Origin: Qipengyuania sediminis
GTDB taxonomy: Bacteria > Pseudomonadota > Alphaproteobacteria > Sphingomonadales > Sphingomonadaceae
Direction: 5' to 3'
Length of the DNA: 64,000 nt
Assembly: GCF_004358425.1 (NCBI RefSeq)
Contig: NZ_CP037948.1
Location: 310,001-374,000, forward strand
The notes beneath the pieces were generated by a model that was not told the DNA's origin, searched no databases, and saw nothing but the letters and a program-made list of their open reading frames with translations. The translations under genes and the position numbers were made by a program. Positions 46,515-54,083 of the stretch are shown one piece after another (positions within the stretch are counted from its first letter, which is position 1; every line of letters starts with the position of its first letter).

Positions 46515-46551
46515 TTGAAACAGCCCGGTTTTTGCGCCATATTCCTCGCCG

Positions 46552-46637
46552 GGAGCCGGTCGGGCGCTTGCGTCCGCCAACCTGGTCAGGTCCGGAAGGA
46601 AGCAGCCACAACGGGTTGCGGCGGGTCGGCCGGCTCC
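46552..46637 (+). ncRNA. ffs: Bacterial signal recognition particle RNA (4.5S, small type)
   Basis: The conserved apical part CCAACCTGGTCAGGTCCGGAAGG...AGCAGCC (from about 46578) is the Ffh-binding loop with the GGTCAGGTCC and GGAAGCAGCC internal loops. The terminal helix GGAGCCGG (46552-46559) pairs with CCGGCTCC (46630-46637). It folds into one hairpin of about 86 nt and binds Ffh for cotranslational targeting. Located just upstream of dnaX. Confidence 0.93.
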
Positions 46638-46698
46638 TTCGTCACCGCGCCACATCATCTCTTCTCGCCCGCATGACATCGGTGGCGGCAGCATCTAG

Positions 46699-53471: not shown

Positions 53472-53557
53472 GGACAGGTGGCCGAGTGGTTAAAGGCAGC
53501 AGACTGTAAATCTGCCCGCGCAAGCGTACGCTGGTTCGAATCCAGCCCTGTCCACCA
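53472..53557 (+). tRNA. tRNA-Tyr (GUA anticodon)
   Basis: Type II tRNA with a long variable arm. Acceptor GGACAGG (53472-53478) pairs with CCTGTCC (53547-53553); the anticodon arm is CAGACTGTAAATCTG with GTA; the T arm has GGTTCGAATCC. CCA is encoded. The last 19 nt are repeated four times downstream. Confidence 0.96.
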
Positions 53558-54007
53558 AGCGCTATCCAATCAGGCGAACCAGCGTTGGCGACCGCGCAGC
53601 GGGCGCGCGCTGGAGCGGAGTCGGAGCGAAGCGGAGACGCCGCTGCAGGCGGCAATCCAGCCCTGTCCACCAAGCGCTATCCAATCAGGCGAACCAGCGT
53701 TGGCGACCGCGCAGCGGGCGCGCGCTGGAGCGGAGTCGGAGCGAAGCGGAGACGCCGCTGCAGGCGGCAATCCAGCCCTGTCCACCAAGCGCTATCCAAT
53801 CAGGCGAACCAGCGTTGGCGACCGCGCAGCGGGCGCGCGCTGGAGCGGAGTCGGAGCGAAGCGGAGACGCCGCTGCAGGCGGCAATCCAGCCCTGTCCAC
53901 CAAGCGCTATCCAATCAGGCGAACCAGCGTTGGCGACCGCGCAGCGGGCGCGCGCTGGAGCGGAGTCGGAGCGAAGCGGAGACGCGGCTGCAGGCGGCAA
54001 TCCAGTC
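53539..54007 (+). repeat. Four tandem 115-bp repeats starting with the 3' end of tRNA-Tyr
   Basis: The tRNA end AATCCAGCCCTGTCCACCA (53539-53557) recurs at 53654, 53769 and 53884 at an exact 115-bp period, each followed by the same 96-bp spacer (starts AGCGCTATCCAATCAGG). The first three units are identical; the fourth has one C-to-G change at 53986. A fifth copy is cut after about 7 bases (53999). Period 115 is not a multiple of 3, so any reading frame cycles through three frames; basic Arg-rich frames remain open across the array on both strands. Confidence 0.95.
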
Positions 54008-54083
54008 CCGCCCGCCACCCTTCGCTTCGAGCTTGCATATGACTGTAGTTGCTCCTCGCGACCGGCGAGCCTAACGCCCCTGG

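Follow-up and report, generated by a model that had tools for sequence, protein, structure and literature searches.

To our knowledge, both the purpose and the origin of the E. coli rtT repeats are still unclear. According to the available part of one report, rtT is released as an RNA from the transcript of a tRNA operon and is tied to amino-acid limitation, and RNAs of the RtT family adjoin Asn- and Lys-tRNA genes in a Pasteurellaceae species (PMC4986893), so that tRNA neighbours of RtT other than tRNA-Tyr are not new. Sequences resembling rtT have also been linked to BIMEs (available part of PMC2965389). Integration into tRNA genes is known to duplicate blocks reaching from the T-loop to the CCA (Islander; available part of PMC4383910).

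Here we analyse an array of four units behind the tRNA-Tyr gene of Qipengyuania sediminis, located in a stretch of 64,000 nucleotides referred to as the window, together with related units behind other tRNA genes. A family with dozens of members behind several tRNAs, combined with natural presence and absence, makes the purpose and origin of rtT testable, and comparison of species can ask what covaries, what survives the loss of a unit and whether the hairpins act as DNA or as RNA. No description of such a family was recognised in the literature searched, from which subscription papers largely fell outside, and the available parts of PMC9897764, PMC4686876, PMC4383910, PMC11623569, PMC4986893 and PMC2965389 do not describe it.

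The array behind tRNA-Tyr

Tandem Repeats Finder reported a period of 115 across 53539-54005 (4.1 copies, 99% matches). The array comprises four complete units (53539-53998), each made up of the 19-nt tRNA 3' end (nt 58-76), hereafter the tail, and a 96-bp spacer (Table 1). The preliminary description of this locus had recorded four 115-bp units, each with a 19-nt tRNA tail, and spacers alike save for one base in unit 4; the repeat finder and the 19/19 tails bore this out, and the sole difference among the four spacers was assigned to a C to G change at 53986. It had placed the end of the feature at 54007; a fifth, decayed tail with no further spacer behind it was found, and the end was therefore moved to 54017. 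The copy number of four rests on the assembly, a single contig of 2.416 Mb.

Table 1. Features of the tRNA-Tyr array, in window coordinates
Feature	Position	Strand	Basis
tRNA-Tyr(GTA), CCA encoded; last 19 nt (53539-53557) = tail copy 1	53472-53557	+	
Unit 1 spacer, 96 bp	53558-53653	+	
Unit 1 P2 hairpin, GCA triloop	53579-53613	+	predicted folds and inverted repeat; fold energy no better than shuffled
Unit 1 P3 core, hairpin GTC-GGA-GC-GAA-GC-GGA-GAC	53617-53639	+	exact pattern match, predicted folds, covariation in the family
Unit 1 P4, GC-rich inverted repeat directly 5' of tail copy 2	53639-53653	+	by eye, by analogy to related units
Tail copy 2, 19/19	53654-53672	+	
Unit 2 spacer; P3 core 53732-53754	53673-53768	+	
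Tail copy 3, 19/19	53769-53787	+	
Unit 3 spacer; P3 core 53847-53869	53788-53883	+	
Tail copy 4, 19/19	53884-53902	+	
Unit 4 spacer; P3 core 53962-53984; C to G at 53986, within P4	53903-53998	+	
Fifth tail copy, decayed, 15/19; outer array end	53999-54017	+	

Elsewhere in the window, a bacterial small SRP RNA gene lies at 46549-46643.

The chance level of tail matches was estimated from all 42 tRNA genes of the genome. For 37 of them, the best match to their own tail 61-350 nt downstream was 9-13/19, and the five higher values belonged to Tyr (19), Glu (19), Pro-CGG (16), Arg-CCG (14) and Met (14), the Glu match being a tandem complete tRNA and the Met match the tail of an adjoining tRNA-Pro. 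Reversed tails of the 42 tRNAs reached at most 13/19. Tails of other tRNAs attained at least 14/19 in 42 of 1720 comparisons, a count that includes related tails, neighbouring tRNAs and one match of 19, and a lone 14/19 match is thus no proof of a unit. No second array of this kind was found among the 42 tRNA genes. Behind tRNA-Pro(CGG) (L068), the 16/19 copy lies 91 nt downstream and may be the decayed remains of an old unit that had another insert.

Outside the window, a different sequence, about GTCCTCGGCGCTNTT...CACCTGCGGGCGCG...TCGCGCTTGCG, was noticed to recur 3' of tRNAs at loci L043, L051, L052 and L069 of the same genome; it occurs behind tRNA-Thr(GGT), Gly(TCC), Leu(GAG), Val(CAC) and Ala(CGC), mostly after a hairpin adjoining the CCA. 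No tail copies were seen at these loci, and the sequence is perhaps a second family of tRNA-trailer repeats.

A family of units behind several tRNAs

The core of the spacer, GGAGTCGGAGCGAAGCGGAGACG, gave 21 matches with up to three mismatches in 16 of 60 genomes of the genus, the backward control giving none. Beside the four window units, 12 of these matches lay behind a called tRNA-Arg (10 CCT, one TCT and one CCG) and five had no called tRNA. A copy of the last 17 nt of the host tRNA, with at most four mismatches, followed in 11 of the 12 Arg cases (at most one mismatch in 10 of them), the tail at the CCG locus being decayed. Among the five matches without a called tRNA, L073, L081 and L085 have a partial tRNA end directly 5' of the unit, and L084 and L087 have no tRNA.

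To extend the search we used R1, a covariance model of the spacer hairpin derived from 18 units. At E up to 0.1, R1 matched 27 of 60 genomes of the genus; at E up to 0.01, it matched 36 of 298 from the family, spread over 25 of 96 genera; and at E up to 0.001, it matched five of 385 from the class, of which two lie beyond the family: G434 at tRNA-Ser(TGA), with a tail copy, and G624 at tRNA-Gln(TTG), with a degraded tail. The model R2 matched three of 398 phylum genomes, all inside the family. In named genomes, a core pattern was met at 31 loci, 30 in genera or groups of Sphingomonadales (Qipengyuania, Novosphingobium, Erythrobacter, Croceibacterium, Altererythrobacter, Tsuneonella and others) and one assigned only to Pseudomonadota. 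The window's genome itself (G000) holds eight R1 copies. Four are the Tyr units, and Arg-CCG, Ser-CGA and Ser-GGA are each followed by one copy whose tail is decayed. The eighth occupies the T-loop of a decayed second tRNA-Arg(CCT) body that lies a short way upstream of the intact one.

At the loci that were read, the unit stands behind tRNA-Arg, -Ser, -Tyr, -Lys or -Gln, mostly as a single unit followed by a copy of the host's own tail. Such a copy (at most two mismatches in 17, 50-400 nt downstream) was present in 80 of 170 distinct tRNA contexts, one of which is a tandem complete tRNA; the remaining 79 (Arg 56, Ser 17, Tyr 4, Lys 1, Gln 1) give no unbiased rate, the contexts having been chosen for the core or the tRNA. 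A called tRNA was present at 78 of the 97 loci taken for R1 matches and lacking at 19. By eye, eight of these 19 show a partial tRNA end directly 5' of the unit, as at the end of an island (L073, L081, L085, L143, L165, L172, L174, L185, and perhaps also L192); L121 and L175 have no tRNA end 5' of the unit, and eight others fall outside a loose tRNA-end pattern (L123, identical to L084, L124, L126, L128, L160, L167, L169 and L187). L121 is an orphan unit with an Arg-type tail copy and no tRNA or tRNA end directly before it.

With a Ser-tail pattern for T-loop inserts, 14 matches were obtained in 299 phylum genomes (backward control 4), and only L277 holds a tRNA. In this locus, from another alphaproteobacterial family (G418), tRNA-Ser(CGA) is followed by a terminator-like hairpin, GGGTTCG, a different insert and then AATCCCACC; this Ser unit shares the layout, not the insert, with the family. 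A narrow Tyr pattern gave one match (L287) in 185 gammaproteobacterial genomes.

As for tRNA-Tyr itself, a tail copy with at most two mismatches in 17 was found in four of 35 Tyr contexts: the window and three loci, all from other genera (L149, L150, L180). Two further Tyr loci of other genera (L171, L176) have units with decayed tails, and G001, from the same genus, has a core remnant at Tyr and no tail copy. Whether other sphingomonad tRNA-Tyr genes have the same design had been asked earlier; among these contexts the four-fold array was found only in the window's genome, and the copy number therefore looks like a recent local amplification. In the relatives represented by L007 and L029, the first 200 bp or so behind tRNA-Tyr contain tyrosine integrase genes, and the tail is for this reason probably an integration site in the genus.

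Anatomy of the unit and covariation of its hairpins

In 5' to 3' order, a unit has, after the CCA, a hairpin P1, a stretch with a tendency to complement the tRNA end, a partial copy of the 5' side of the T-stem, the hairpins P3 and P4, and the tail from nt 58/59. P3 was parsed in 75 of 79 units (L141, L156, L180 and L222 were unparsed), and four rows judged to be mis-parsed (L115, L149, L193, L224) were left out, leaving 71 units. TTCG stands directly 5' of the core in 64 of the 71, and GTTC in 51. With the T-loop TTCG on the 5' side and the tail from nt 58 on the 3' side, P3 and P4 look like an insertion that parts nt 57 from nt 58 in a partial second copy of the tRNA. At several loci (for example L122, L125, L156), P1 with a T-run resembles an intrinsic terminator placed directly 3' of the first CCA. 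The lengths of related units vary freely.

P3 is built from a 3-bp outer stem and an inner stem, separated by a GNA/GNA internal loop, and is mostly capped by a GNA triloop. The terminal loop is GNA in 59 of 71 units and the internal loop in 70 (5' side) and 69 (3' side), the parser having demanded the A of the internal-loop GNA and scored the G. Changes on both sides of P3 pairs numbered 57 cells against 8.0 in shuffled data (score 0.231 vs 0.067; 3 to 13 in slid controls), in an alignment fitted to the P3 structure. From a plain MAFFT alignment of 18 units, with the structure not given, RNAalifold returned the same five P3 pairs, four of them with both-sided changes. Pairing fails at the third inner pair in 59 of 104 rows. 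P1 also covaries: at Arg-CCT, its outer four pairs are standard in 23, 23, 21 and 20 of 23 parsed units, with several pair types each. GNRA tetraloops, which had been expected in P1, were present in only 15 of 65. G-T pairs account for 4 of 438 pairs in P3, 97 of 717 in P1 (65 of 69 non-Tyr rows) and 7 of 190 in P4 (35 of 71 rows), with P1 and P4 chosen as the best hairpin under a rough rule.

Downstream of P1, a stretch tends to complement the end of the unit's own tRNA, with a pooled value of 5.94 against 5.63 for permuted pairs (sd 0.11; maximum of 5000 permutations, 6.05) and 5.50 against 5.38 (sd 0.10) in the forward-tail control. Taken singly, only 2 of 18 units fell below 0.05; the pooled tests alone differ, and their rows are related. 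The first TGGn fits N73 in 44 of the 64 units with a TGG; 11 of 75 units have none.

The window units carry AGCG where TTCG is expected 5' of the core, and P2 is present and P1 not clear. Positions 53575-53584 are complementary to 53529-53538, the 5' side of the T-stem of tRNA-Tyr. Predicted folds omit P4, the CCGCT of which pairs with bases 5' of P3 to give a longer P3 stem, and the fold energy of the window unit does not differ from that of shuffles (z of -0.50 as DNA and 0.60 as RNA).

Possible gain, loss and movement of units

One exact presence/absence pair was found at tRNA-Arg(CCT) in the sister genomes G027 and G029, where G027 contains 126 bases that G029 lacks, with flanks matching at 60/60 and 154/160. 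The tRNA genes themselves (L106 and L263) differ at 11 of 77 bases, which all fall within nt 16 to 45, from the D-loop to the anticodon stem, while the 60 upstream bases and both tRNA ends are identical; the interior of the G027 gene thus looks replaced. Given these 11 differences, the pair does not represent a clean insertion. A similar unit is present in G034, their neighbour in the tree, so that the simplest explanation would be that G029 lost its unit through the tails, and the pair is best interpreted in this way. Another pair, G024/G026, likewise keeps the register but is less clean.

Carriers of the Arg-CCT unit are patchy, requiring eight changes for nine carriers on a 29-genome tree against a shuffled mean of 7.8. 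The tree was built from about 1.1 kb upstream of tRNA-Tyr (29 of 30 loci, one being too short; G001 has a very long branch); carriers were set by hand, G000 being counted for the insert in its T-loop and G034 and G032 for units that follow an island end, and non-carriers were based on R1 and partly on reading of the loci.

Among 11 multi-tail alphaproteobacterial loci, nine have a proximal tail better than the outer one, L086 ties and L199 shows the reverse, although in three of the nine (L149, L153, L214) the outer match is only 13-14/19, a level attainable by chance. Tails track variants of their own tRNA at several loci, such as L152, L177, L188 and L190, but not in L032 and L076. At tRNA-Lys(TTT) (L144), a unit resembling that of Arg-CCT has Lys tails on both sides, suggesting that units may move from one tRNA gene to another. 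At eight loci, all Arg-CCT and including that of the window's genome (L047, L146, L147, L179, L213, L222, L134, L032), the intact gene is preceded by a second tRNA-Arg(CCT) body whose T-loop carries a hairpin insert. For seven of these, the distance separating nt 57 from the following tRNA was measured and is 95-107 nt; in L134, L032, L213 and L222 a further R1 match occurs in the same locus.

Interpretation of the array

Several readings of these data were weighed, and we favour a repeat structured as DNA over an RNA resembling rtT, with integration scars, plain duplication and coding each less likely. That the units act as RNA, as in E. coli rtT, is possible but doubtful: they would be co-transcribed with the tRNA, the T-arm-like part and the tail guiding tRNA 3' processing, and the released structured RNA would influence the response to amino-acid shortage. 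The layout shared with rtT, whose freed RNA is linked to amino-acid limitation in the available part of PMC4986893, agrees with this, as do the covarying pairs of P1 and P3, the complementarity of the stretch after P1 to the unit's own tRNA end and the fit of the first TGGn to N73. Likewise, the GTTC 5' of the core corresponds in RNA form to GUUC, the TruB motif (available part of PMC11623569). However, the hairpin and T-run directly after the CCA at several loci, among them L122, L125 and L156, should halt transcription before P3 is reached, G-T pairs are scarce in P3 as compared with P1, and the Rfam RtT model has no match in the window. GNA loops can also form in RNA. As DNA, hairpins of the GCGAAGC type, with GNA loops closed by G-C, are extraordinarily stable (available part of PMC4686876), and together with the few G-T pairs this hints, without proving it, that P3 and P4 may act as DNA.

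It is unlikely that the tails are attachment-site scars of tyrosine integrases targeting the T-loop, each insert leaving a tail at its outer end and the unit being a remnant. The T-loop-to-CCA block is of the kind duplicated on integration, integrase genes adjoin the same tRNA-Tyr in L007 and L029, and outer tails tend to be worse; yet one covarying core recurs in many tRNAs and genera, the units of about 90-130 bp hold no gene, and the Lys unit has a Lys tail on either side. The eight loci with a partial tRNA end and no whole tRNA 5' of the unit, counted in favour of scars, fit the repeat reading as well and leave the balance between the two unchanged. A functionless local duplication, by which slippage behind the tRNA created a chance tandem repeat, is more improbable still. 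The near-identity of the four units agrees with it, as does the finding that no other Tyr context examined in the genus has the array, the G001 core remnant excepted; it had been proposed earlier as the reading to adopt if close relatives lacked the repeats and no transcript was seen, and it holds for the copy number, but it does not account for the unit, which belongs to a family with a conserved, covarying structure behind other tRNAs. Least probable by far is that the array encodes a basic protein, as the tpr annotated at the E. coli locus would suggest. The open, Arg-rich frames crossing units whose length is not a multiple of 3, as described before, are indeed there (198 aa, 53478-54074), but the frame begins inside the tRNA, related units are free to vary in length and, as 115 is not divisible by 3, every unit is in another frame, on which ground coding was rejected.

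We therefore return to the reading that we prefer, tentatively and with somewhat less confidence than an even chance would warrant: the array is a DNA-structured repeat bounded by tRNA tails, lost and multiplied through these tails and recently amplified here. A typical unit would be a partial second copy of the 3' part of the tRNA, from T-arm to CCA, with hairpins inserted in its T-loop between nt 57 and 58, and would for that reason be bounded by direct repeats of the tail. Recombination or slippage between the tails could remove a unit precisely and could have turned one unit into four at this locus. P3 and P4 may represent folded single-stranded DNA, as their GNA loops, GNA/GNA internal loops and few G-T pairs would suggest, and the unit may be a largely selfish, tRNA-bound insertion element. 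The tRNA depends on the proximal tail, which would therefore be preserved, whereas outer tails would decay. Anatomy, distribution, presence/absence and structure are documented directly; mobility, function and action as DNA are inferred. Against the preferred reading, no match was found in viral contigs with two exact core patterns as queries, nor in phages and plasmids with the window unit as the single query, and the window's genome has no match to a Y1 transposase. Also against it, the conserved P1 pairs point to a role at the RNA level or for the host, GNA loops are not exclusive to DNA, and the window unit is without TTCG, a clear P1 or an energy signal.

A broader hypothesis, possible but held with less confidence than the reading for this array, is that rtT is one member of a class extending across alpha- and gammaproteobacteria. 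Its members would be mobile, gene-free sequences of about 90-180 bp that fold as single strands with GNA mini-hairpins and lodge in the T-loop of a partial tRNA copy; with the host tRNA's own tail at both bounds, they could enter and leave without harm to the tRNA. If true, this would show how a repeat can inhabit the immediate flank of an essential gene while leaving the gene intact.

Comparison with known systems

Scars of the Islander type share with the units a displaced tRNA 3' fragment starting near the T-loop, but the array differs in its gene-free 96-bp spacer, near-identical tandem units and covarying hairpin, and there is no integrase between the tails. An island with an integrase between the tRNA and a displaced tail was accordingly discarded, only 96 bp lying between tails. 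REP/BIME elements with RAYTs are likewise short palindromic repeats, whereas the present units are bound to tRNA tails and the window's genome lacks a Y1 transposase: PF01797 had no match in G000 and occurred in 5 of 60 genus genomes, leaving mobilisation by RAYT/Y1 unsupported. A CRISPR-like array was ruled out by the identical spacers. Weak matches to other Rfam families (sX4, two microRNA models and others) stayed under their gathering scores, overlapped tRNAs or units, and were taken as chance.

The closest likeness is to E. coli rtT. In the tyrV locus of E. coli K-12, tail copies (19/19) lie at +160, +338 and +516, giving a period of 178 bp as opposed to 115 bp in the window, and the units here, moreover, stand behind several kinds of tRNA. 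The Rfam RtT model (RF00391) had no match in the window at the gathering score and none in L061, the Tyr locus, with E values up to 5; in the E. coli control it matched four times, at 133-138 bits. The four best matches of R2 in the E. coli locus were the four rtT units, weakly (E 0.06-0.12 in 1.9 kb). The window array is thus rtT-like in layout and not a member of RF00391. The preliminary description had drawn the comparison with E. coli tyrT/rtT for a single locus; the likeness of layout stands, whereas the array is in fact one member of a family behind several tRNAs.

The resemblance also proved deeper than first described. Both arrays are tandem repeats behind tRNA-Tyr in which each unit ends with an exact 19-nt tail in E. 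coli and with the 19-nt tail in the window (nt 58-76). The E. coli units have a T-stem 5'-side copy, AAGGTTCG, ending in TTCG before the insert and AATCC after it, with the hairpins in between; by eye, the first hairpin, CTC-GA-GC-GCCA-GC-GA-GAG, resembles P3, the loops are GCCA, GCA, GAA and GCA, and a tail-complementary stretch, GGGGAAGGAT, is present. Hairpins placed between TTCG and a tail from nt 58, an arrangement recognised here and lying outside the definition of RF00391, are seen in E. coli rtT and, with TTCG, in 64 of the 71 parsed units; the window unit has the tail exact and the TTCG changed.
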